Below are positions 50,095 through 61,828 of a DNA stretch of 64,000 nt, in pieces. Below the pieces are notes generated by a model. It was not told where the DNA came from and made no database searches. It saw only the letters and a list, made by a program, of their open reading frames with translations. The stretch is from Pelodictyon luteolum DSM 273. GTDB taxonomy: Bacteria > Bacteroidota > Chlorobiia > Chlorobiales > Chlorobiaceae. The translations under genes and the position numbers were made by a program. Location: the NCBI RefSeq assembly GCF_000012485.1, contig NC_007512.1, forward strand, positions 1,489,001 through 1,553,000, in the 5' to 3' direction. Position 1 is the first letter of the stretch, and the number at the start of each line of letters is the position of its first letter.

Positions 50095-51705
50095 ATGGAC
50101 ATGAATACTGATGCCAATATCCTGATAGTCGACGACGAGCAGGATACTCTTTTTGCCCTGAAGCGATATCTGCGGCTTGAGCCCTATACAACCCATTTCG
50201 CAAAAAGTGCAGAGCAGGCCTTAGAGACATGCGATACAATCAATATCGCCGTTGTTGTCACCGACCTCCGTATGCCGGGCATGTCCGGCAAAGAACTGCT
50301 TGACGCTCTCCAAGAGCGGCACCCGTTGATCGTGCGCATCATCATCAGTGGCACCGAGGATATCGGTATGATCATCGACTCGATCAATTCAGGAGTGATC
50401 TTCCGCTTCATCCCGAAGCCAATGGAGCCGGAACGCATGAAGGCAATCATCAGGGATGCCATAGCATTCTACCGGATGCAGCTGGAACACCGGGAGATGT
50501 CTGCCCTGGCCGAAAAGCAGAACCGGTACCTTACGCAGATCAATGATGAGCTGCGACTCATGACAACACGGCTTCAGGACAGCGAACAGCGCTTCCGGGC
50601 CATGAACGATGCGGCATTCGACCCTATTTTCCTTCTTGATGCAGCCGGCCGTATCGTCTATGCGAATGTGGCGGCCGAAACCATTTTCGGGTATACCCGC
50701 AAAGAATTTCTGTCGCTCCTGGTTGGCGATTTGATGACTCCGGAAAATATCAAAGCAGGAATAATTGAAAAACTGCTTACGTCGCTGAACACGGCACCGA
50801 AGGAACTGGAGATAGACTGCCTTAAAAAAGATGGAACCGATGTAAACATCGGGATTTCAGTTAACACGGCCAAGATCCTCTCGGTTCCGCATATCATCAT
50901 GATTGCCAGAGACAACACGCTCCGGGCCCAGGAAGAGAAAAGCCGGCTTGAACTGGAAAAAGTACAGAAGACGCTTGAATCCCAGATTGAACGACGACTC
51001 CTGCAGCGACATGTCCCGATTACGCTTGAGGGCGCCTCTATCAGCCACTTCATGCTCTCCTCGGGACACCTGAACGGTGATTTTTCAGACTTCATCGTCT
51101 ATGAACAACAGCTGGCTGATATCCTGCTCGGCGATGTCATGGGCCATGGCATCCTGTCGGCCCTGGTGGGATCGGGCATGAAATCACTCTACCTGAGGAC
51201 GATTGCGAGGAAAAGCTTCAGAAAAACCGTTCCTGAACTACAGGAAATCGTCACCGATCTCCACAGGGAGTGCATTCATGACCTGCTGGACATAGAAATC
51301 TATGCGACCATGCTCTTCTTCAGGCTTGACCTGAAACACAAGAGACTTTCGATGATTGACTGCGGGCATACTTCAACCATTCATGTCCATGCAGCTGACG
51401 CCACATGTTCCCTTCTGAAAGGATCGAACCTTCCGATTGGAATGGTTGAGGAGCAGGACTTCGCCTGCGTCGATGTGCCGATCGAGCACGGTGATACCAT
51501 CGTCATTTACTCCGACGGGATCACAGAAGCCCAGCTGCCCGATCGCTCGTTTTTCGGAGAAGATCGCCTCATCGAACTCGTTACCCGGCACCAAAAGGCC
51601 TGCACGGACGATATACTGCTCGCTATCCGCCAGGAGCTCTCTTCCGCAACAGGCGGAACTACCTTTGAAGACGATGCCTCGTGCATTGTCATCCGCATCA
51701 GCTGA
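50095..51705 (+). CDS. response regulator with PAS and PP2C-type (SpoIIE/RsbU) phosphatase output
   Basis: This 536-residue protein has a receiver (about 7-125, acidic pocket DDE near 13-15 and phospho-Asp 57 in [10 protein letters not shown]), a coiled-coil, and a PAS domain (about 165-285). The SpoIIE-type phosphatase (about 310-536) includes [21 protein letters not shown] and YSDGITEA. Such enzymes dephosphorylate STAS antagonists to start a partner switch. Two STAS proteins and an RsbW-like kinase lie 3-7 kb downstream. The likely input is the split kinase encoded divergently. A sigma-54 activator gene follows 7 bases later. Confidence 0.92.
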
Positions 51706-51712
51706 ATCGACT

Positions 51713-53002
51713 ATGGGCATATCCTCCATCCTCATCATCGGCGGCAAGCCCGGAACCTTCCGCCAAACCGCCCGGGCCCCCTTCAAAGTCACCTATGTGG
51801 ATGATGCCGGGGATGCTGCGGCAATGGTCAGAGACGACGAAATATTCCAGCTTGCCATCATCACCCTCAGCAAAACCGGACCCGCTGTTCTCCCCTTATG
51901 CAACAGCCTGCTGGAAGCCACCCCACCGGCAAAAGTAATGTTAGTTGCGGGTGATGACGAACTGCAGGAGATACTTTCCTGGCTTGCAGGACTCACTCCC
52001 GGGGACATCAACAGCTTTACCCGCAGCACCGCGCCTCTGCCGGAGAAAGAAAAAACGGTTACGAGTGCACTCCCGTCCCGCTTCGAAGGCCTCATCGGGG
52101 AGTCGCCGGAAATGAAGAAGGTAAAGACCCTGATAGAAAAAATCGCGCCGACGGGCACGACTATTCTGCTGCAGGGGGAAAGCGGTACAGGGAAGGAGGT
52201 TCTTGCCAGAGCCATCCACCGCAGCAGCGCACGTAGCGACAGGCCGTTCATCCCGGTTGACTGCGCAGCAATCAGCGGCACGATTATCGAAAGCGAGTTG
52301 TTCGGCCATGCTAAAGGAGCGTTCACCGGAGCGGACCGCAGCACGCTCGGCATGATCCGCTCAGCCGACAAGGGAACATTATTCCTTGACGAAATCGGGG
52401 AACTCCCGATGAACATGCAGGCCAAACTCCTAAGGACTCTTCAGGAAAGAGCCGTCAAGCCGGTAGGCGAAAGCAGGATCTACCCCGTCGACATCCGCAT
52501 TATCGCAGCAACAAATCGAAACCTCGCCGAAGGGGTCAAGAACGGGGAGTTCCGTGAAGACCTATACTACCGGCTCAATGCCATCACCATCTATGCCCCC
52601 CCCCTGCGCGAAAGAGCTTCAGACATCCCGCTGATCTGCCGCCACATCCTCAATCGCCTAGAGAACGAGGGATTTACACAAAAAACTATTTCAGAACGGG
52701 CATTGACCATGCTCTCGGCCTACGGATGGCCCGGCAATGTCAGGGAACTCGAAAATGTGATGCGCCGGGCCACCATGCTCACCAATGGCGACACCATTGA
52801 TACAGACGTACTGTCCTTTGAATCTGGCCACATGCTTGCCCTTGAAGCCTGCGATGTCAATCCCGGAAGCATGGCTTCACATGAAAAAGAGGCTATCCAG
52901 AAAGCCCTGCAGAAAACCTCGGGGAACAGACGTGCCGCCGCCGACCTTCTCGGCATCAGCGAAGCGACCCTGTACCGCAGGCTCAAGACCTACAGCATCT
53001 GA
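51713..53002 (+). CDS. sigma-54-dependent transcriptional activator with degenerate receiver
   Basis: This 429-residue protein has a receiver-like N-terminus (1-105) and an AAA+ domain with GESGTGKE at 155-162, GAFTGA at 202-207 (sigma-54 contact) and [10 protein letters not shown] at 221-230. A Fis-type helix-turn-helix lies at about 390-429. The receiver lacks the phospho-acceptor Asp: the third strand reads [10 protein letters not shown]. Control is therefore not by ordinary phosphorylation. ATG 51713 is used because the longer frame runs inside the previous gene. A matching sigma-54 promoter and palindrome lie just downstream. Confidence 0.92.
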
Positions 53003-53040
53003 CCCGCTCCGCTCCCCCCTCTCCACACACGCACAAGCAC

Positions 53041-53057
53041 CTCTCTCGATGAGAGAG
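53041..53057. promoter_or_regulatory. candidate enhancer-binding site (palindrome) upstream of the polysaccharide cluster
   Basis: CTCTCTC (53041-53047) and GAGAGAG (53051-53057) form a perfect inverted repeat, 107 bases upstream of the -24 element of a sigma-54-type promoter. Activators of this class bind such palindromes at about 80-150 bases. It could also be a weak terminator of the activator gene, but no T-run follows. Confidence 0.5.
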
Positions 53058-53162
53058 AGTATCCACTTTGACTTGCATTCTGAAAGCGAAGGTCCGCATC
53101 AAAGAAGACGTAAGTCACCCGAACAGCACGCAGACAAAGGCTCTGAAGCCCTCCCCTCAATT

Positions 53163-53178
53163 TGGCACTGTTCTTGCT
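53163..53178 (+). promoter_or_regulatory. sigma-54-type promoter of the polysaccharide cluster
   Basis: TGGCAC-N5-TTGCT has GG at 53164-53165 and GC at 53176-53177 with the obligatory 10-base gap, close to the consensus. It lies 53 bases upstream of ATG 53231 and 160 bases after the sigma-54 activator gene. Confidence 0.75.
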
Positions 53179-53230
53179 ATATTTTTCAAGATAAGAACGA
53201 GCCCATTTCCTTTAAACCGAAACAATACGG

Positions 53231-54061
53231 ATGGCTAACGAACAGCTCAACATGACCATGACCCGAACAGGACACATCATGATACTGGGATGCTCACACA
53301 AAACCGTGCAGCTGCAGGACCTGCTCGGAAAAAAAGGCCATATGGTATCGGTTGCCGGAAACCATGCTGCATATATAGACGCCATCGAAGCAAAGCCCCC
53401 CTACGAGATAACCATACTGACCGACAGCTTCGATGATGCACTCAATAGCTCGCTGCTGACCACTATCAGAACGTCCTGCCAGCCCGGCAACATCATCTGC
53501 CTCTGCAGTGGGGACAGCCCTGAAACGGAGCGCCTGATCCGGTCATCAGGCCCGGTTTTCTATGGCAGCTGCGAAAGTTTCATTGCAGAGGCTGACCGGA
53601 TCATCCAATCGTCATTGGCCGCATCCGGATCAAGAGCAAGCGACAAGAGGGCGGCATCGGCAAAAATGCTTGAGCAAAGACTTCTTACCCCCCCACCATT
53701 CACGTCGAACAGCCTCAGGTGCCAAATACATGCCGTGAGAACTGGTGCAGTTACAATAGCGGGTCGCTCAATGGAAGTACTTATGGCTCTGACGCTCCTT
53801 ACCCTGACAGGATTGCCTGTCCTGCTGGTGCTGGCGGCAAGAAAGCTTCTCAAGGGAACGCCGGTACTCGATACCGTTTCAATACGGACATCAACAGGAA
53901 CGGCAGTGAAAGCCTACCGGTTCCATTCCACCGGACATGCTTTTCGCGACATTCCGCTCGCAGTCCTGATTCTTTTGGGGAAACTCTCAATCATTGATAC
54001 GAATCAGCCTGACCACAACAGCGTAATGCAGTGGAATGCGCTGATACGTGATTTGCAATAG
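53231..54061 (+). CDS. receiver-like/degenerate sugar-transferase-like membrane protein
   Basis: This 276-residue protein resembles two known folds without their active residues. Residues 14-128 look like a receiver fold (HIMILGCS, EITILTDSF, NIICLCSG, PVFYGSCE) with no phospho-Asp pattern. Residues about 178-260 follow the outline of a polyisoprenyl-phosphate hexose-1-phosphate transferase: a hydrophobic hairpin (181-203), then TPVLDTVSIRTSTGTAVKAYRF in place of the usual GPV-x-Q-RVGRNG-F-KF block, then LGKLSIIDTNQP in place of KGDMSLVGPRP. It is first in the sigma-54-controlled cluster, directly before the canonical transferase. A regulatory or assembly role is inferred. Confidence 0.6.
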   Translation: MANEQLNMTMTRTGHIMILGCSHKTVQLQDLLGKKGHMVSVAGNHAAYIDAIEAKPPYEITILTDSFDDALNSSLLTTIRTSCQPGNIICLCSGDSPETERLIRSSGPVFYGSCESFIAEADRIIQSSLAASGSRASDKRAASAKMLEQRLLTPPPFTSNSLRCQIHAVRTGAVTIAGRSMEVLMALTLLTLTGLPVLLVLAARKLLKGTPVLDTVSIRTSTGTAVKAYRFHSTGHAFRDIPLAVLILLGKLSIIDTNQPDHNSVMQWNALIRDLQ

Positions 54062-54068
54062 GAACACC

Positions 54069-54788
54069 ATGGAACTCGACCCGACCGTCAGAAAAGAGCT
54101 GATCGAGAAAATCAGCGAGACCATCAGCCCTGCAGCCCAGAGACACAGGGCAATGCGGGTATACATCTGGGAAGCGACAGTCCGGGTCTCCTATAGACTG
54201 AAACGGCTGCTCGACATCACCGTATCGGTTGCTGCGACCATCCTGCTCATGCCGGTTTTCCTCATCACGGCGGCAGCAATCTGGATCGAGAACCCCGGAC
54301 CGGTACTCTTTGCCCAAACCAGGGTGGGTCGGAACGGCAGGCACTTCAGGTTCTTCAAGTTCCGCTCCATGGTAGTCAATGCCGACTGCATGAAAGATCA
54401 GCTTGCCGCAATGAATGAATCAGCGGCCGGAGTGATTTTCAAGATGAAAAAAGACCCAAGGATTACGAAAGTAGGGCGTATAATCCGTAAGTTGAGCATC
54501 GATGAACTCCCTCAGCTGCTTAATGTGCTGAAAGGTGACATGAGTCTGGTGGGCCCGAGGCCTCCGCTTCCACGGGAAGTCGCGGAATACACCCTCGAAG
54601 AACGCAAACGGCTGCATGTCATGCCAGGCATCACCTGTCTCTGGCAGGTAAGCGGAAGAAGCGACATCCCGTTCAACGAACAGGTCCTGCTTGACATGCA
54701 GTATATTCAAAGTTCCAGCATCACCAACGACATCGCCCTGCTTCTCAGGACAGTTCCTGCAGTGCTTACTGGAAGGGGCGCATATTGA
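54069..54788 (+). CDS. polyisoprenyl-phosphate hexose-1-phosphate transferase (initiating sugar transferase)
   Basis: This 239-residue protein has a hydrophobic hairpin (about 48-72), the KFRSM motif at 97-101, SIDELPQL at 143-150 and GDMSLVGPRP at 156-165, the complete catalytic core of the PglC/WcaJ/WbaP small-domain family. It loads the first sugar phosphate onto undecaprenyl phosphate, the starting step of exopolysaccharide or O-unit synthesis, at the inner face of the membrane. ATG 54069 has AGGA 5 bases upstream. It overlaps neither neighbour and is followed closely by a STAS gene. Confidence 0.93.
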   Translation: MELDPTVRKELIEKISETISPAAQRHRAMRVYIWEATVRVSYRLKRLLDITVSVAATILLMPVFLITAAAIWIENPGPVLFAQTRVGRNGRHFRFFKFRSMVVNADCMKDQLAAMNESAAGVIFKMKKDPRITKVGRIIRKLSIDELPQLLNVLKGDMSLVGPRPPLPREVAEYTLEERKRLHVMPGITCLWQVSGRSDIPFNEQVLLDMQYIQSSSITNDIALLLRTVPAVLTGRGAY

Positions 54789-54802
54789 CAACGAGAGCCA
54801 CT

Positions 54803-55156
54803 ATGGAATTCAGTGTCGACACATCAGCTGGAGTACGGGTAGGAGTGGCCATCCTTCCCGAACGCATCGACGCTGCCAGCTGTGCAGAGCTTCAGGCAGC
54901 GGCTGCGGGGTGGCTGAAACAGACGGCAAACCTGGTATTTGACTGCTCCGGCCTCGACTTCATCGACAGCAGCGGCCTCGGTGTTCTGGTTTCGACCCTA
55001 AGAAAGACCATTGAGCAAGATGGGGATCTCAAACTTGCCTGCCTCGGCATGAAAGCCTCCATGCTGATGGAGCTCACCAAGGCAAAACGGCTCTTTTCAA
55101 TCCATCCTGATGCCGTATCTGCCATAGCGGCCTTCCATGGAGGAGTGCGGCAATGA
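54803..55156 (+). CDS. STAS-domain anti-sigma-factor antagonist 1
   Basis: This single STAS domain of about 117 residues has the phosphorylatable serine motif FIDSSGLGVLVSTLRK near 55. Proteins of this type (SpoIIAA/RsbV) bind an RsbW-like kinase when dephosphorylated and release its target. ATG 54803 is chosen; a TTG at 54785 overlapping the transferase stop would add six residues. The stop overlaps ATG 55153 of the next, interrupted gene by ATGA. Confidence 0.9.
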   Translation: MEFSVDTSAGVRVGVAILPERIDAASCAELQAAAAGWLKQTANLVFDCSGLDFIDSSGLGVLVSTLRKTIEQDGDLKLACLGMKASMLMELTKAKRLFSIHPDAVSAIAAFHGGVRQ

Positions 55157-55239
55157 ACACAGGATCAGTGCAGACCCTCATCGTGCTGCGGGAAGAGGAA
55201 CACGCATGACTCCAGGACCTGTTCAGAAGCCGCCACCCG

Positions 55240-56544
55240 ATGCTGGTGACACTCTGCAACAAGCCCTTCATAGAGTATCTTATCGACTTTGCCATTCTTT
55301 CCGGCAGCGAAGCCTTAAGGATCGCAAGCGACAGCCCGATCACCGACCTGGAAAACTACTGCGGGAACGGAAGCCGTTGGGGCATCACCATCGACTATGC
55401 ACATATTCTTTTCGAAGATGACCAGGAACGGCTCCTCGAAAAGAACCGACAGTTCTGCTCCAGAGGCAAGACGATGCTGATTGAAAAAACGCTATTTGTG
55501 GCCTACGACAAAAAAAACGACTACAGACTATGGCTCAGGGCCTGTCCGGAAGGAGTCGCGGTTTCCGGCACGAGCGGATCAATCACCATCCTGGGTAACA
55601 AACAAGAGAACGCCATACCGGGACCCATTCCCGGGCCATCTCTTCCAATGCTCCTCACCATAGGGGAATACTACCGCCTTGCTGACGACACACTGAAGAA
55701 CGCAGATCGCTACATCCTCCCTGGCTACAGCAGCGAGCCCGACTGTTTTCTTGGAAGAAATGTGGTCATCCAGAAAGGGGCAGAGATCCGCAAGCCCGTC
55801 ATGATCGGCAACAATGTACAGATCTCGGCAGGCTCGATCATCGGCCCCGGTGCCATCATCGGCAGCAACATCATCATCGACAGGGAAAGCGTTGTTTCCG
55901 GAAGCATCCTCATGGACAACACCTTCATTGGCGAGCAGCTTGAAGTCAAAGGGAGGATTGCTGACGGCAGCCTCCTCATTGATCCCGAAAGCGGAGCGAC
56001 GCTGCAGATGGAAGACCCTCATCTGATGAGCGTCATCCAGCCCGGTGCATCGACAAAGCAGATCATCCGCCGCCTTATCCACGCCCTTGCAGCCCTCGCC
56101 CTGCTCATCGTCCTTGCCCTCCCGTTCCTCGTTCTCCGTCCCCTGCTCGGATTGCGCAGGAACTGGCATACGAAGAAACGCCTCTTCCCGCCGGGAGCAA
56201 CAGCAAAAAAACTCACCATTGAACAGGTCGTGATCAGACCCGAGGGAGCAGACGGCAGACTCGCCATTGCACTATCCATCGATCGATATCCCTCGCTTTT
56301 CAAGGTACTCGGCGGAAAACTCCGGCTGATCGGGCACCGTCCGGCAGTATCTTCGGATACATCAACAATCTCTTCAGGCTGTATCGCCATGAACCCTGCC
56401 GTTTTCGGTTATGCAGAAACTGAAGAGTGGCCCGAAAATGAGCGCGATGAACTGATGGTCGACCATTATCATCTTCTTCATAGCGGATCGCTTAACGACA
56501 TCGGCCTGCTTCTGAAAGCTTTACTGAACAAAAAACATATGTAA
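55240..56544 (+). CDS. nucleotidyltransferase-like/hexapeptide-repeat protein with sugar-transferase-like tail, interrupted near its start
   Basis: The product is 434 residues from ATG 55240. An NDP-sugar pyrophosphorylase-like region (LCNKPFIEYLIDFAI) lacks the GxGTR loop. It is followed by left-handed beta-helix repeats (about 165-230, VVIQKGAEIRKPVMIGNN). A hydrophobic hairpin (about 277-305) and a transferase-like tail come last, with GGKLRLIGHRP at 358-368 echoing KGDMSLVGPRP. The same frame runs back through an in-frame TGA (55207-55209) to ATG 55153, which overlaps the STAS stop (ATGA). The original gene therefore probably began at 55153 and carries a nonsense codon at position 19. It may be silenced, restarted at 55240, or a scaffold. 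Confidence 0.7.
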   Translation: MLVTLCNKPFIEYLIDFAILSGSEALRIASDSPITDLENYCGNGSRWGITIDYAHILFEDDQERLLEKNRQFCSRGKTMLIEKTLFVAYDKKNDYRLWLRACPEGVAVSGTSGSITILGNKQENAIPGPIPGPSLPMLLTIGEYYRLADDTLKNADRYILPGYSSEPDCFLGRNVVIQKGAEIRKPVMIGNNVQISAGSIIGPGAIIGSNIIIDRESVVSGSILMDNTFIGEQLEVKGRIADGSLLIDPESGATLQMEDPHLMSVIQPGASTKQIIRRLIHALAALALLIVLALPFLVLRPLLGLRRNWHTKKRLFPPGATAKKLTIEQVVIRPEGADGRLAIALSIDRYPSLFKVLGGKLRLIGHRPAVSSDTSTISSGCIAMNPAVFGYAETEEWPENERDELMVDHYHLLHSGSLNDIGLLLKALLNKKHM

Positions 56545-56557
56545 CACGGGAGGAAAC

Positions 56558-56881
56558 ATGAATATTGCAGAATCCACCATCAACGGCATAAAGGTACTCT
56601 CACTGGAGGGAGTACTCAACGCAGCTTCATCGCCAAAGTTCAAAGCCTATCTTGAAACGGCAGATCACTCCGGACCCATGATCATCAATCTGGAGCAGGT
56701 CGAGTTCATTGACAGCAGCGGGCTGGGGCTGCTGGTTAGGCTTGCCAGACAGAAAAAATCGGCCAATGAAGCCCTGAAACTGGCAAAGATGAATGACCGG
56801 GTGAAGCGCGTGTTCGAGATCACTCAGGCACACAGCCTCTTCGACATATATGATGACATTCAGGCAGCTGCCGGCAACTAA
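56558..56881 (+). CDS. STAS-domain anti-sigma-factor antagonist 2
   Basis: This 107-residue STAS protein has FIDSSGLGLLVRLARQKKS, with the conserved serine near 57-58. GGGAGGAAAC precedes the ATG, the strongest ribosome site in the cluster. It lies 16 bases before the RsbW-like gene, the classical antagonist/kinase pairing, so this one is the more likely direct partner. Confidence 0.93.
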   Translation: MNIAESTINGIKVLSLEGVLNAASSPKFKAYLETADHSGPMIINLEQVEFIDSSGLGLLVRLARQKKSANEALKLAKMNDRVKRVFEITQAHSLFDIYDDIQAAAGN

Positions 56882-56897
56882 TACCGGAGACCATAGT

Positions 56898-57335
56898 ATG
56901 ACTCAAATTCTTTCGGCAACCCTCAAAGCTGAACTTAGAAACAGCCGGATCGCCGCAAATATCGCCCGCTCAACCGCTGAAGTTTTTGCCGAAGAGCGCC
57001 ACTTTTCCGGAAATGTCCAGGAGTTCGGCCACACCTTTGAACTCGCCGTAAGCGAAGCGTTCACCAACTCCGTCAACTACAGGGATCCGAGCATCAAAGA
57101 CATTACCGTGACAATCGGCTTTGAGGAGGAAAGCAACGCACTGACGGCCAGCGTGACAGACATGAACGCCCCGTTCAACATCCACCCTCCTGAACCCGAA
57201 ATCACTGAATATCCGGAAGGGGGATTCGGACTGTTCATCATCTGGAAGCTCATGGACGAAGTCTCATGCAGTCGGGAAGGACAGAGCAATGTGCTCTCCA
57301 TGAAAAAATTCATCAGCAGGCCTGAAAACCCATAA
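56898..57335 (+). CDS. RsbW-like anti-sigma factor / serine kinase (HATPase_c_2)
   Basis: This 145-residue GHKL ATPase has an N-box ELAVSEAFTNSVNYRD near 50-65, a G1-type DMNAPFNIHPP, and a G2 box EGGFGLFIIWKLMDEV near 117-132. It should phosphorylate the STAS antagonists and sequester a sigma factor or another target. No sigma factor gene is adjacent, so the target may be one of the polysaccharide proteins. ATG 56898 is preferred over the earlier in-frame ATG that would lie inside the STAS gene. Confidence 0.9.
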   Translation: MTQILSATLKAELRNSRIAANIARSTAEVFAEERHFSGNVQEFGHTFELAVSEAFTNSVNYRDPSIKDITVTIGFEEESNALTASVTDMNAPFNIHPPEPEITEYPEGGFGLFIIWKLMDEVSCSREGQSNVLSMKKFISRPENP

Positions 57336-57351: not shown

Positions 57352-58326
57352 ATGGTATCGGTCATCATCGTCAGTTTCAACACCCGGGAAATCCTTGCAG
57401 AGTGCCTCATGAGCCTGTTCCGACATGCCGGAGAAGTCCCTATGGAAGTCTTCGTTGTCGACAACGCGTCCAAAGACGGATCCCCGTCGATGGTCAGGGA
57501 ACGGTTTCCTGCAGTCCGGTTGATTGAAAACAGTGACAACCGGGGGTTTGCAGCAGCTAACAATCAGGCATACACGCTCTCGCAGGGTGACTATGTCGTC
57601 CTGCTCAACCCGGATGCCTACCTTCAGCCCGAATCTCTGGCCAACGCGGTTGCATTCATGGACAGAACCACCGGATGCGGGCTCTCTGGCGGAAAAATCA
57701 TCTCCCCCAAGGGAACGCTCGAACCCTCGGCAAGGCGCTTTCCCTCAATCCGCTCAAAACTGCTGACCATCTCCGGCATCAGCGGCAGGTACCCCCGCTC
57801 CCCCATCCTGAACCGCCATGAATTCGGTGGATTCAACCACGACGCCCCCATGGAGGTCGACTGGGTCCCCGGGACCTTCACCATCGTCCGCCGGAGCATG
57901 CTTGAGTCGATCGGTTTTTTCGACGAACGCTTCTATCTCTATTACGAAGAAACAGACCTCTGCCGCCGTGCGAAAAATGCAGGCTGGAGCGTGTATTTCA
58001 TTCCCGATGCGTCAGTCATACATATCGGCGGAGCATGCAGCAAGACGAGAAAGGAAAAGACTTTTGACGATTCAGGATCACAGGTGCTCTCCTTCCGACT
58101 CCGCAGCGAATGCCTCTACTACAGAAAAAACCATGGAGCTGCAATGCTTATCGCATCAACAGGACTTGAAATCTTCTGGAACCTTCTGATCTTCACCAAA
58201 AACATGGTTATCCCCTCGGAAGAGGCGCAGAGAAAACGCACGGCATCGATTGGCATCGGCAAACAGACCCTCCGTGCACTAAAAGACACCCGCTTTGGCA
58301 CAATCTCACCACCAACTCCATGGTAA
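57352..58326 (+). CDS. family 2 glycosyltransferase (rhamnosyltransferase-like)
   Basis: This 324-residue GT-A enzyme begins VSVIIVSFNTREILAECL and has FVVDNASKDGSP, FAAANNQAY and the DxD-equivalent LLNPDAYLQPE near 82-92. WVPGTFTIVRRSMLESIGFFDERFYLYYEETDLCRR follows near 165-200. It resembles WbbL-type rhamnosyltransferases. It adds a sugar to the lipid-linked unit in the cytoplasm. 16 bases after the RsbW-like gene. Confidence 0.92.
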   Translation: MVSVIIVSFNTREILAECLMSLFRHAGEVPMEVFVVDNASKDGSPSMVRERFPAVRLIENSDNRGFAAANNQAYTLSQGDYVVLLNPDAYLQPESLANAVAFMDRTTGCGLSGGKIISPKGTLEPSARRFPSIRSKLLTISGISGRYPRSPILNRHEFGGFNHDAPMEVDWVPGTFTIVRRSMLESIGFFDERFYLYYEETDLCRRAKNAGWSVYFIPDASVIHIGGACSKTRKEKTFDDSGSQVLSFRLRSECLYYRKNHGAAMLIASTGLEIFWNLLIFTKNMVIPSEEAQRKRTASIGIGKQTLRALKDTRFGTISPPTPW

Positions 58327-58464
58327 TCATGAGACAACCCGCTCCCCGACAGCCAGACAGAAAAACAGCCGATACGATCAACATAACAGAGTAACATCCC
58401 ATTAACATTATGGCACGGATTGTCTGATTTCTGTGGCAGTAATGAAGGAATAATTCCCCCTGCA

Positions 58465-59553
58465 ATGCACCACAAATTTTCTTCTCCCCTGATACAACCG
58501 CCAGTCGTCAAGGTTTTACAGTGTCTTTTTCTGGCCTTGCTGCTCACCTCATGTGCGGGGCTTTCACCCAAGCCTACCAAAAACCCTCAATCACCGCCTC
58601 CCGGCAGGGACTTTACCATAAAGCTACCAGACAAATCCCCCATCTTCGCCAAGAAAGAAGACCTCAATAAAGAAATAAGCGAGGCAAAACCTTTCGAATA
58701 CCGCCTCGGACCGGGAGACATCATCGGCCTCAAGGTTTGGCGACGCCCCGAACTCTCGGAAGAACGAATGATCATCTCTCCGGATGGGTTTATTGCTACC
58801 CCCAGGGTCGGAATGCTCAATGTCAACGGTAAAACCCCTGACGAAGTCAAAGAATCGATTACTACAAAACTTGAGGTCCTGTACATCAAACCGGAAGTCA
58901 CCATACAGGTACATGATTTTCAGAATAACAAGGCCTATGTGCTTGGCAATGTCAACAAACCCGGGTTGGTACGATTCTCAGGCAGGGGGACGCTGCTCGA
59001 AGGCCTATCGCTTGCTGGCGGGGTCCCGAAAGAAGATCGTATGACCCGCTGTTCAATCATCAGGGGGAACGATCAGGTGATTTGGATCGATCTGCAGGAT
59101 CTGCTCTCGAACGGAAATATGAGCCTGAATACCACCATCCACAACAACGATATCATTTATGTGCCGGAACACGCCCACGACATGATTTATGTCATGGGAG
59201 AAGTCAAGACGCCCGGGGCAATCCCCATGCATGACGGCATGAGCGTACTCAAGGCAGTCATGATGGCAGGCGGCATCACACGAACGGGCAATGAGGAAAA
59301 AGTCTTCATCATCCGTCAGCAGGATACGAATGGCACAGTGGCTGAAATCAACCTCAAAAGACTGGTTGAAAACGCTGATTTCACCCGAAACTATACCCTC
59401 ATGCCCAACGACATCATATATGTCAGCCCCTCCGGCATGGCAAAGTTCAACTACACGCTTCAGGATATCATGCCGACGCTACAAATCATCAATCTGGGAA
59501 CATCTGCGCTGAATTCAGTCAATTCAACCATTATAATCCCATCTCAGCCTTAA
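58465..59553 (+). CDS. Wza-type polysaccharide export lipoprotein
   Basis: This protein of about 362 residues has a signal and lipobox (LLLTSCAG, Cys near 30). It has a Poly_export domain (about 75-160, YRLGPGDIIGLKVWRRPELS), then two SLBB domains (NKAYVLGNVNKPGLVRF and DMIYVMGEVKTPGAIPM). It forms the outer-membrane export channel with the Wzc-like protein. ATG 58465 gives a proper signal peptide; an earlier in-frame ATG (58420) would bury it. A gap of 138 bases precedes it and may hold a second promoter. Confidence 0.92.
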   Translation: MHHKFSSPLIQPPVVKVLQCLFLALLLTSCAGLSPKPTKNPQSPPPGRDFTIKLPDKSPIFAKKEDLNKEISEAKPFEYRLGPGDIIGLKVWRRPELSEERMIISPDGFIATPRVGMLNVNGKTPDEVKESITTKLEVLYIKPEVTIQVHDFQNNKAYVLGNVNKPGLVRFSGRGTLLEGLSLAGGVPKEDRMTRCSIIRGNDQVIWIDLQDLLSNGNMSLNTTIHNNDIIYVPEHAHDMIYVMGEVKTPGAIPMHDGMSVLKAVMMAGGITRTGNEEKVFIIRQQDTNGTVAEINLKRLVENADFTRNYTLMPNDIIYVSPSGMAKFNYTLQDIMPTLQIINLGTSALNSVNSTIIIPSQP

Positions 59554-59572: not shown

Positions 59573-61828
59573 ATGCTGAAAGAACAGTCAACAAAAGATC
59601 CGCTACCATTGGGGAAACCCAGAAAGGCTTTCGACTTAGCGGGCTTTATAAAAAGGTACGGCTTATTCATCCTCCTGCTTGGCGGTTTCCTTTTCGCCAT
59701 GCTGACACCGCTTATCTTCATCATAAAAAAACCATACTACGAAGTTCATGCCCTCATGCAGGTTGACCCGACGGTACCTACCCTTTTCAGCAATACTGAA
59801 GAGTCCTCCATCGTGAGTTACTACCCGCGCTATATCAGCACTTCGGCTCAGGCAATGACAACCATCGACATCCTGATAAAAGCGCTTGATTCAATGAAAC
59901 CGGCTGACAGAGAGGCGCTCTTCCCCAAAGGGGTACCCACGGAAACTTGCGCAGCAATTCTTCACAACATGGTGTCGGTTACTCCGGGCAACAGGGATCA
60001 CATACTCACCCTTCAGATTTCCGGGAGCAAACCTGAGGGGCTTGCAGAGTTCCTCAATACTCTCATGCAGACCTATATGGAGGAAACCCGCAAAGCGAGC
60101 AACAACTCTAACAGCGACAGGCTCAAATTCCTCTATGCCCAGAAAAATGTCATCACGCAGGAGATGTCGGCCATTGAGCGGGATCTTGACAGCCTGACCC
60201 GGGATATCGGCACATCATCTTTTTCTGAAACCTTTAATATCGCAGCAAAAAACAGCGACAACCTCTTACGGTCCTACAACTCTGTCCTGAATGAACGACT
60301 TGCATATGAAACAAATTACAGGGCCCTGCAGCAATCAAATAATGCGTTAAAAAAAATCGCTCTTGACCCCTTAGTCAATGAAATTGTCTTGAATAACAAT
60401 GCCTTGACTAATACAGAATCATGGACCTACCAGCAGCTCCAACAGCTGAGAAGCACCACCGACGGGCTGACAGAAATAAACCCGGAGCGTATTTATGTAG
60501 AAGGACAAATGAAATCAATGAAATCCTATGCACAGGAGCTCCGTGAAGAAGTACGCAACAAGGCAAAAAACATCACCCTTGGCAAAAGAGATATAGACAT
60601 GCAAAAGTCGGTAATCATCGCCAAAAACAATTATGAAGCCGCACAAGCAAGAGAAGACACCCTGCGGGTTGCAATCAATGAAAACAGCAAGGAAGCAAAA
60701 CGCATCTCGATAGGCATCCACAGAGGCGAGTATCTTTCAGCCAACTGGCAAAACAAGTTCGACCTCCTCAACAACATTGAAAAACGCATTACAGAAATTG
60801 AAATCGAGAAAAAATCCCCCCTGCGCCTTTCCGTTCTCTCTATTGCCCGCACACCGAAACAGCCGCTGAAATCAAACATCAACAAGATAACGATCCTGCT
60901 TCTCGTCGGCAGTTTCGGCCTCGTGGGCGGGGCGTTTGCAACATATGAATTTTTTGACGACACCATTAGAAGCAGCAAGGATATCACGCATGCACTTGGG
61001 CACCCTCCCGTGCAAACCATCGTCAACCTCAGGGCGCCGAATGCAGAGGATCAGGAACAGCTTAGCCTTGCTCCCGATGATTTTCGGGCACATCAGATCG
61101 GGAGCCTTGCCGTCAAATTCTTTAGGGAAAGAACATCGAGCAATGCTAGGGCGCTCATTTTCACAGGTACGGATAAGGGGGTAGGATCATCAGCCATCAC
61201 ATTCAGCTGTGCCAAAGCCCTCTCGCAGCTTGTCCCGAAAGTACTCATTATCGATGGAGACATCGAAGCCGCGCCAATCGACGAGGACGATGAATTCCAG
61301 ATCAGCCTGCCGGGGCTCTGCGATTACCTGGCCGACTCAATGACGCTGGAAGAATGCATAGTCAGCACTCCCGGTGACAATATTGATATGATGTATGCTG
61401 GCAATATCACCGGTAGAAGTGTCCCGCGCCAGAAAATTCCTGAACTCTTTGCTGAACTGAAAGAGAAATACGATTTCATCTGCGTGGACAGCACCCCCCT
61501 TCTCAAAAGCCACCTGGCTGAGCAGTTCGCCATGCATGCCGATATCGTAACACTGATCTCACTCGGCGATAGCTCTAAATTCAGGGATCTGAGAAAAGCT
61601 GCAGCTTTGCTGGTTCTGCTTGGAGTACCGAGCATCGCGCCCATCCTGAATTTCGGGGGGATCCGCAAAACTCTGACTATTGCCGAAATGTTCGACAACC
61701 CCCCCGCCCTCATAAGCAAAGTGGTTCCAGAAAAGATGATTGACGGCATACGGCGTTCGCCGGTCGGGATCCGCATGATTGACAAGCTACTGCAGTTCAC
61801 ACAGAAACTCCAGCAAACAAAAGATTAG
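59573..61828 (+). CDS. Wzc-like polysaccharide co-polymerase with degenerate ATPase domain
   Basis: This 751-residue protein has a Wzz domain (first helix about 28-50, second about 440-460, long coiled coil between, about 170-400). A cytoplasmic BY-kinase-like ATPase domain (about 525-720) follows. The Walker A reads FTGTDKGVGSSAI at 530-542, with serine in place of the P-loop lysine. The DGD of the second Walker motif (about 563) and VDSTPLL (about 637) remain. There is no C-terminal tyrosine cluster. It sets chain length and opens the Wza channel; kinase activity is doubtful. Confidence 0.9.
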   Translation: MLKEQSTKDPLPLGKPRKAFDLAGFIKRYGLFILLLGGFLFAMLTPLIFIIKKPYYEVHALMQVDPTVPTLFSNTEESSIVSYYPRYISTSAQAMTTIDILIKALDSMKPADREALFPKGVPTETCAAILHNMVSVTPGNRDHILTLQISGSKPEGLAEFLNTLMQTYMEETRKASNNSNSDRLKFLYAQKNVITQEMSAIERDLDSLTRDIGTSSFSETFNIAAKNSDNLLRSYNSVLNERLAYETNYRALQQSNNALKKIALDPLVNEIVLNNNALTNTESWTYQQLQQLRSTTDGLTEINPERIYVEGQMKSMKSYAQELREEVRNKAKNITLGKRDIDMQKSVIIAKNNYEAAQAREDTLRVAINENSKEAKRISIGIHRGEYLSANWQNKFDLLNNIEKRITEIEIEKKSPLRLSVLSIARTPKQPLKSNINKITILLLVGSFGLVGGAFATYEFFDDTIRSSKDITHALGHPPVQTIVNLRAPNAEDQEQLSLAPDDFRAHQIGSLAVKFFRERTSSNARALIFTGTDKGVGSSAITFSCAKALSQLVPKVLIIDGDIEAAPIDEDDEFQISLPGLCDYLADSMTLEECIVSTPGDNIDMMYAGNITGRSVPRQKIPELFAELKEKYDFICVDSTPLLKSHLAEQFAMHADIVTLISLGDSSKFRDLRKAAALLVLLGVPSIAPILNFGGIRKTLTIAEMFDNPPALISKVVPEKMIDGIRRSPVGIRMIDKLLQFTQKLQQTKD

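Follow-up and report, generated by a model that had tools for sequence, protein, structure and literature searches.

Degenerate, apparently inactive phosphoglycosyl transferase domains beside the active enzyme in Chlorobiaceae, and their possible role in polysaccharide initiation

It is an open question by what means the enzymes that initiate and elongate lipid-linked sugars at the membrane meet and pass on their scarce carrier lipid. A locus of Pelodictyon luteolum DSM 273 raises it in a particular form: why is the gene for a monotopic phosphoglycosyl transferase (PGT) flanked on both sides by relatives that lack the catalytic residues? The locus lies in a stretch of 64,000 nucleotides (positions 1,489,001 to 1,553,000 of NC_007512.1, here called the window) from a genome that consists of a single contig of 2,364,842 bp. 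Genes X and Y, which are treated here, were singled out in an earlier note that worked from the letters of the window. The positions and termini given there are correct, X ending in ...LGKLSIIDTNQPDHNSVMQWNALIRDLQ directly before its stop codon and Y containing GGKLRLIGHRP, and the gene between the two does encode a canonical PF02397 enzyme, whose KFRSM, DELPQ and GPRP motifs are intact. To judge from the comparisons below, the membrane domains of X and Y are almost certainly degenerate, inactive relatives of this enzyme (pseudo-PGT domains). The three genes and their parts are as follows.

53231..54061, + strand: gene X, 276 amino acids, receiver-like domain and truncated pseudo-PGT domain (family hidden Markov models (HMMs) XRR, 2e-49, and XPGT, 4e-12)
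53240..53641, + strand: receiver-like domain of X, from an alignment of 12 orthologues; the receiver assignment is weak
53726..54058, + strand: N-terminal half of the X pseudo-PGT domain, from alignment and residue table (family against canonical PGT by hhalign, E = 4.8e-10)
Sites in the X pseudo-PGT: re-entrant helix Pro, 53816-53818; vestigial YRFHS, 53915-53929; FRDIP replacing DELPQ; GKLSII
54069..54788, + strand: canonical small monotopic PGT (PF02397, E = 4.8e-66)
Sites in the canonical PGT: KFRSM, 54357-54371; DE dyad, 54501-54506; GPRP, 54552-54563
55153..55239, + strand: lost N-terminus of Y, in frame from ATG 55153, with a TGA at 55207-55209
55240..56544, + strand: gene Y as called, 434 amino acids, nucleotidyltransferase-like domain, left-handed beta-helix and pseudo-PGT domain
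55240..55740, + strand: nucleotidyltransferase-like domain of Y (RmlA profile match), lacking the G-rich GGxGTR loop
55741..55959, + strand: left-handed beta-helix of Y, hexapeptide repeats (PF00132, E = 9.3e-10; LbH_EIF2B, E = 2.8e-9)
56014..56541, + strand: pseudo-PGT domain of Y, from an alignment of 36 sequences (PDB profile match to PglC, 1.4e-6)
Sites in the Y pseudo-PGT: helix His, 56080-56082; Pro, 56122-56124; Asp-Arg in place of Asp-Glu, 56281-56286; GHRP, 56332-56343; C-terminal Asp, 56497-56499

Homology to the transferases and loss of catalytic residues

Of the two window proteins only Y passes the gathering score of PF02397 (29.0 bits against a cut-off of 27, E = 9.6e-7, residues 343-428), the match covering just the second half of the model, and 13 of 15 Y orthologues match this family at E ≤ 0.01. 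When a profile of 36 Y pseudo-PGT domains was run against 177,635 PDB sequences, PglC came first (1.4e-6) and there was no significant match outside the PGTs. Window X has no match in Pfam and no useful one in Pfam and NCBIfam together; it is recognized at 4e-12 by an HMM of pseudo-PGT domains that was built from three other genomes with the window excluded, over the first half of the model (positions 2-81 of 155). Across the X family 19 of 21 pseudo-PGT domains match PF02397 and no other family (best 2.4e-12), the remaining two being truncated copies, and the only significant matches of the X-domain profile among the same PDB sequences (hmmsearch) are WbaP (4.5e-7) and PglC (1.9e-5). By hhalign, whose E-values apply to single comparisons, the X domain and the canonical PGT align all the way from re-entrant helix to C-terminus (E = 4.8e-10) with one large deletion of about 46 residues between the KFRSM and DELPQ positions, in which R88 is lost, and the X domain aligns with the Y domain at 3.7e-9. 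The relationship put forward in the earlier note is thus borne out for both proteins, beyond chance resemblance, by the profiles, which find only PGTs significantly in the PDB. Structure prediction gave a PGT match for an X orthologue alone, and at low confidence. The comparison loci carry labels from L083 to L142 (L093 is C. phaeovibrioides BrKhr17 and L094 is P. luteolum CIII, the nearest named relatives of the window locus), and for the pseudo-PGT of the X orthologue from L102, modelled with a mean predicted local distance difference test score (pLDDT) of 59 and values near 80 in the N-terminal part, the top three of 350,542 chains in Foldseek are PGTs: WbaP 8t53 (probability 0.99, E = 0.068), PglC 8e37 (0.85) and 8g1n (0.80), with E-values of 0.07-0.5. 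The refuting condition of the earlier note, predicted structures unlike the transferase fold, is therefore not borne out for X, while the Y model, discussed below, gave no meaningful match and speaks neither for nor against the fold.

As reference residues we used the PglC set of PMC12802240, that is the D11-P24 helix motif, K59, R88, D93-E94, R111 and D168, which are described as important for activity (PMC12802240, PMC10519829); minimal activity remains in PglC R88Q (PMC10519829). Orthologues of the canonical PGT keep the full set in 17 of 17 cases, and all of the 30 sampled active-type PGTs of this phylum carry KFRSM or KFRTM, DE[LFIV]PQ and VGPRP. In X none of 21 domains has Asp at the D93 position (Arg in eight, Ala in eight, Cys in three, Ser in two), the PRP motif is missing and KFRSM is vestigial (RFNS-like; YRFHS in the window). 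Y keeps D93 in 35 of 36 sequences and has Arg for E94 in 35 of 36; a KFRSM-like motif was sought in the family and found in no Y. A regular expression for DELPQ hits seven of 38 Y proteins in an AEEWPE stretch, and these hits were dismissed as chance matches because the aligned dyad position is Arg. The catalytic residues are therefore gone from X and Y, as the earlier note had held; its wording that KFRSM and DELPQ are absent goes too far, in that vestiges are recognizable (YRFHS and FRDIP in X, SIDRYP in Y). The membrane part of the domain has fared differently. The Pro of the re-entrant helix is retained in 20 of 21 X and 36 of 36 Y domains, the D(X12)P motif of this helix being altered to E(X13)P in X and H(X13)P in Y, and the C-terminal Asp is present in all 36 Y domains and in 18 of the 19 X orthologues that possess this part, which window X does not. 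Residue by residue, the loss appears selective: sugar-transfer chemistry is gone while the membrane scaffold is retained.

The domains fused to the pseudo-PGTs differ in how well they can be named. The earlier note had seen a receiver-like fold in X. This was not confirmed: Pfam, PDB profiles and hhalign with decoys gave nothing significant for a receiver fold, Response_reg was found in the N-terminus of one of 12 members (E = 0.033), and hhalign against the receivers of the same locus gave a probability of 1.3. The 12 aligned orthologues share an invariant TD and are devoid of the acidic pair and of the Lys of the KP motif. We retain the term receiver-like as a label. The fusion in Y to a nucleotidyltransferase-like domain and a beta-helix is supported as proposed. 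Its N-terminal profile matches RmlA (5ify, E = 2.3e-5), from position 24 onward only, PF00483 is found in two of 15 family members, and the beta-helix is recognized by PF00132. In all aligned orthologues REKDYEW... replaces the AGGxGTR G-rich loop, and Y can be read as a double pseudo-enzyme around a beta-helix because a degenerate PGT is joined to a nucleotidyltransferase-like domain without that loop.

Fusions of both kinds also occur with an intact PGT. At L091 (7708-9012) a receiver is joined to a PGT whose KFRSM, DELPQ and NRP motifs are intact (PF00072, 1.7e-7; PF02397, 2.8e-58), which by its motifs is an active cousin of the X architecture, and at L090 (6110-7681) an NTP-transferase, beta-helix and PGT with intact FRTM and DELPL form what its sequence marks as the active cousin of Y.

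Conservation of the locus and its state in the window genome

The genes that share the operon with X, the PGT and Y are listed here.

50095..51705, + strand: receiver-PAS-PP2C-type phosphatase, likely partner-switching (SpoIIE/RR matches; upstream in nearly all loci)
ends at 53002: sigma-54 regulator, between the PP2C gene and X
54785..55156, + strand: STAS-domain protein between the PGT and Y (PF01740, E = 2.8e-14; in 37 of 37 loci)
56558..56881, + strand: second STAS-domain protein (PF01740, E = 8.8e-17)
56850..57335, + strand: RsbW-like HATPase, anti-sigma-type kinase (PF13581, E = 5.5e-18; RsbW, 3.1e-10)
57352..58326, + strand: GT2 glycosyltransferase, homologous to the GT2 part of GT2-pseudo-WbaP fusions
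58420-59553: Wza-like export gene, label read from sequence
59573-61828: Wzc-like export gene, label read from sequence

The Y profile, run over 84,980 species genomes, gave 36 loci, or 37 with the window, all 36 of them in Chlorobiaceae or its order and phylum bins. The order PGT-STAS-Y is found in 37 of 37 loci and the order STAS-Y-STAS-RsbW-like kinase is nearly universal. With cut-offs of E ≤ 1e-60 for the canonical PGT and E ≤ 1e-40 for Y, 27 of the 65 genus genomes carry both and the other 38 carry neither. A complete partner-switching set is present at the locus, consisting of STAS with a DSSG serine motif, RsbW-like kinase and PP2C phosphatase. The two STAS genes, the kinase and the phosphatase are interleaved with the PGT and Y at 50095-57335 of the window and in all of L093-L128.

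Within this arrangement Y is constant, while X varies. Full-length X, as in L102, L107, L118, L123 and L125, consists of the receiver-like domain, the pseudo-PGT and a WecG/TagA domain of family GT26 (PF03808, E = 1.7e-62; NCBIfam TarA, 1.1e-48, and EpsA, 1e-43). Among the 37 loci the X slot holds pseudo-PGT-GT26 in 13, GT26 alone in nine, the full-length form in five, the receiver-like domain with half a pseudo-PGT in three (the window, L093 and L094), the receiver-like domain alone in two, receiver-like-GT26 in two, and, in one locus each, pseudo-PGT alone, receiver-like domain and GT26 as separate genes, and nothing at a contig end. These architectures are scattered over a tree of PGT plus Y. 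Two GT26 types that are about 33% identical share the slot in L093-L128, type a being fused and type b unfused, and only type a is ever fused; the lineages without a pseudo-PGT have therefore exchanged the whole pseudo-PGT-GT26 unit. Simple trimming of the pseudo-PGT in the lineages with GT26 alone was considered and rejected, the GT26 there being the other type. At L095 (7011-8220), a metagenome-assembled genome, the sigma-54 regulator upstream of X is split over two frames and the pseudo-PGT gene has lost GT26.

Selection acts on the pseudo-PGT domains in other genomes. Pairwise ratios of nonsynonymous to synonymous substitution rates (dN/dS) are 0.11-0.28 for the X domain, 0.15-0.49 for the Y domain and 0.04-0.11 for the active PGT, so that the domains of X and Y are under purifying selection, more loosely constrained than the active enzyme. 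Conserved linkage together with purifying selection fits the suggestion of the earlier note that they are pseudo-enzymes which may hold or regulate a membrane complex.

A related design outside these families

The PF02397 search of relatives also produced partial, degenerate matches in proteins of 660-700 amino acids from other orders. They belong to a family independent of X and Y, here termed GT2-pseudo-WbaP, in which GT2 is followed by WbaP-like membrane and CoA-binding-like parts and a pseudo-PGT, the re-entrant helix being almost directly joined to an LPxVLxGKxSLVG segment. Such fusions, of about 650-810 amino acids, were seen at L083-L089 and L131-L142. In a non-random sample of 19 stretches, neither the dyad nor KFRSM is present in any of the 19 tails, and 11 stretches also hold a canonical large PGT close by. 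Window gene 57352 is a homologue of the GT2 half (up to 43% identity) and also its best match genome-wide (4.5e-58 against 3.1e-25 for the next). The same GT2 hence carries a dead PGT in cis elsewhere and adjoins dead-PGT proteins here. Of the 297 genomes taken from across the phylum, 127 carry GT2-pseudo-WbaP, as do 86 of 140 genera; if the role proposed below is true, this distribution would make the connector a general design.

We propose that the pseudo-PGTs descend from active monotopic PGT domains and kept the scaffold, namely the re-entrant helix and its proline, the amphipathic helix downstream of it and the C-terminal aspartate, while losing the chemistry on sugar nucleotide and undecaprenyl phosphate. 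Such a domain would sit monotopically on the inner leaflet alongside the active PGT and dock its fusion partner where the lipid-linked sugar is made. The partner would be the second-step WecG/TagA-type transferase in full-length X and the nucleotidyltransferase-like/beta-helix module, presumably regulatory, in Y, with Y as the constant and X as the variable docking element. The STAS genes on either side of Y, with the RsbW-like kinase and the PP2C phosphatase, suggest partner-switch control, and these genes probably set the timing of the activity of the complex. Homology, the loss of catalytic residues, conserved linkage, constraint and the independent fusion of a pseudo-PGT to a homologue of the operon's GT2 are observed, whereas contact with the PGT, hand-over of substrate and regulation by the STAS partner switch are steps that we infer. 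That docking of later enzymes or regulators to the active PGT is the main role of the domains has, in our estimation from these sequence patterns, about an even chance. The wider proposal is more tentative, and we hold it as possible: dead PGT domains would be recurrent in polysaccharide initiation of Bacteroidota/Chlorobiota, where at least three fusions (nucleotidyltransferase-helix-pseudo-PGT, pseudo-PGT-GT26 and GT2-pseudo-WbaP) would dock to an active PGT and pass the undecaprenyl-diphosphate sugar onward, under STAS partner-switch control in Chlorobiaceae.

Several observations weigh against docking. The Y pseudo-PGT model (mean pLDDT 61, low confidence) has no PGT match in Foldseek. A complete X pseudo-PGT is present in only 19 of the 36 loci with readable upstream sequence, and since the slots without it hold the other GT26 type, the X pseudo-PGT is dispensable in many lineages. 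The match of PGT and Y in 27 of 27 genomes shows a unit and not independent co-occurrence, because these are linked genes in related genomes. Further points concern the window itself, where X and Y might be functionless, decaying genes, X a remnant of a deleted fusion and Y broken by a nonsense codon, which we regard as a substantial possibility, albeit short of probable. X ends mid-domain in three close genomes, the fused GT26 is gone, and the sole GT26 of the window genome is found 24 kb downstream, with 29-38% identity to each of the two slot types. X differs from its CIII counterpart by eight nonsynonymous and five synonymous changes (dN/dS 0.53, from these 13 changes). In Y the TGA at 55207-55209 replaces a nearly invariant Trp (TGG) and is private to the window genome; CIII reads TGG, BrKhr17 is open, and in the closest relatives the frame runs uninterrupted from the position equivalent to 55153. 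Translation from ATG 55240 removes 29 residues; either Y restarts at this codon, minus its first strand, or the gene is broken in this strain. On the other side, X is open and 97-99% identical in the three genomes, Y has a dN/dS of 0.17 against CIII and could restart at 55240, and constraint on both families elsewhere restricts decay to a strain or clade. With X a remnant and the N-terminus of Y lost to a stop, the two may therefore no longer work as described in the window genome; the finding is real for the family, and the pair in the window strain may be decaying.

For the families at large, the readings that compete with docking are partly compatible with it and with each other, and the probabilities given here do not sum to one. 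Least credible is that X, Y or both are active transferases with a different catalytic arrangement: the dyad Asp that 35 of 36 Y proteins retain would favour this, but the neighbouring Glu has become Arg in 35 of 36, the Asp is found in 0 of 21 X, and the KFRSM block, the R88 segment and, in X, PRP are gone, motifs that are present in 30 of 30 active-type PGTs. We consider it very improbable. The domains might also be mere membrane anchors for their partners that do not bind the active PGT, since the conserved features are the re-entrant helix and the residues stabilizing it, and monotopic anchoring suffices to retain a domain beside a transferase acting on lipid-linked sugar. This is unlikely in our view: a bare amphipathic helix would do for such a purpose, yet the whole domain outline is constrained, including the LPxxxxVLxGxLxLVG helix and the C-terminal helices, and Y always accompanies the canonical PGT type. 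Y could instead be primarily a regulator, its dead nucleotidyltransferase/beta-helix sensing a sugar nucleotide or a STAS partner and switching the PGT on or off. The nearly universal STAS-Y-STAS-kinase order and the missing G-rich loop are consistent with this, as are the precedents of the EpsW receiver, which activates EpsZ (PMC12802240), and of the STAS protein SypA (PMC4517449), but the STAS genes could act on transcription instead, and we judge this reading less likely than not. It is compatible with docking and does not exclude it.

Comparison with known systems

A dead membrane domain of the first enzyme that is joined to the enzyme of the second step, with the live first enzyme encoded alongside, is a direct and testable candidate for a connector between the two steps. 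The finding also carries a warning for annotation: a partial match to PF02397 does not make such a protein a transferase. Our literature search found no inactive monotopic PGT, pseudo-WbaP, PGT-WecG fusion or separate dead PGT beside a live one; a 2021 PNAS survey of monotopic PGT fusions lay outside this search, and such domains may already have been described. The dimers of WbaP (PMC10942596) and the activation of EpsZ (PMC12802240) show PGTs at work in regulated assemblies.

With the monotopic PGTs of PF02397 such as PglC and WbaP, X and Y share sequence homology, the re-entrant helix with Pro, the LPxxxxVLxGxxxLVG helix and the C-terminal Asp, whereas the KFRSM block, the DE dyad, the R88 segment and PRP, intact in those enzymes, are degenerate or deleted. 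Fusions of PGTs with additional domains are already known as bifunctional monotopic PGTs (Bi-PGTs), in which a functional domain is joined to an active PGT core, a class cited in PMC10942596. The fusions in X and Y are of the same kind, and L091 (receiver-PGT) and L090 (nucleotidyltransferase-helix-PGT) would be their active cousins; unlike the Bi-PGTs, X and Y have an apparently dead PGT core, and the active PGT is the product of a separate gene beside them. The GT26 second-step transferases of the WecG/TagA/CpsF type correspond to the C-terminal domain of full-length X, in which this domain is fused to a pseudo-PGT, and are missing from window X.

As for regulation, the single-domain receiver EpsW of Myxococcus xanthus activates the PGT EpsZ post-translationally (PMC12802240). 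X, too, combines a receiver-like with a PGT-type domain at the locus of the initiating enzyme; in contrast to EpsW, the receiver-like domain of X is without the receiver acidic residues, is unconfirmed as a receiver and is fused to a pseudo-PGT. SypA, a STAS protein of Vibrio fischeri, controls biofilm polysaccharide by an unknown mechanism (PMC4517449). The SypA-SypE and related partner-switching modules resemble the Chlorobiaceae locus in that STAS, RsbW-like kinase and PP2C genes surround a polysaccharide-initiating enzyme, and they differ from it in that here two STAS genes bracket the gene of a pseudo-PGT.

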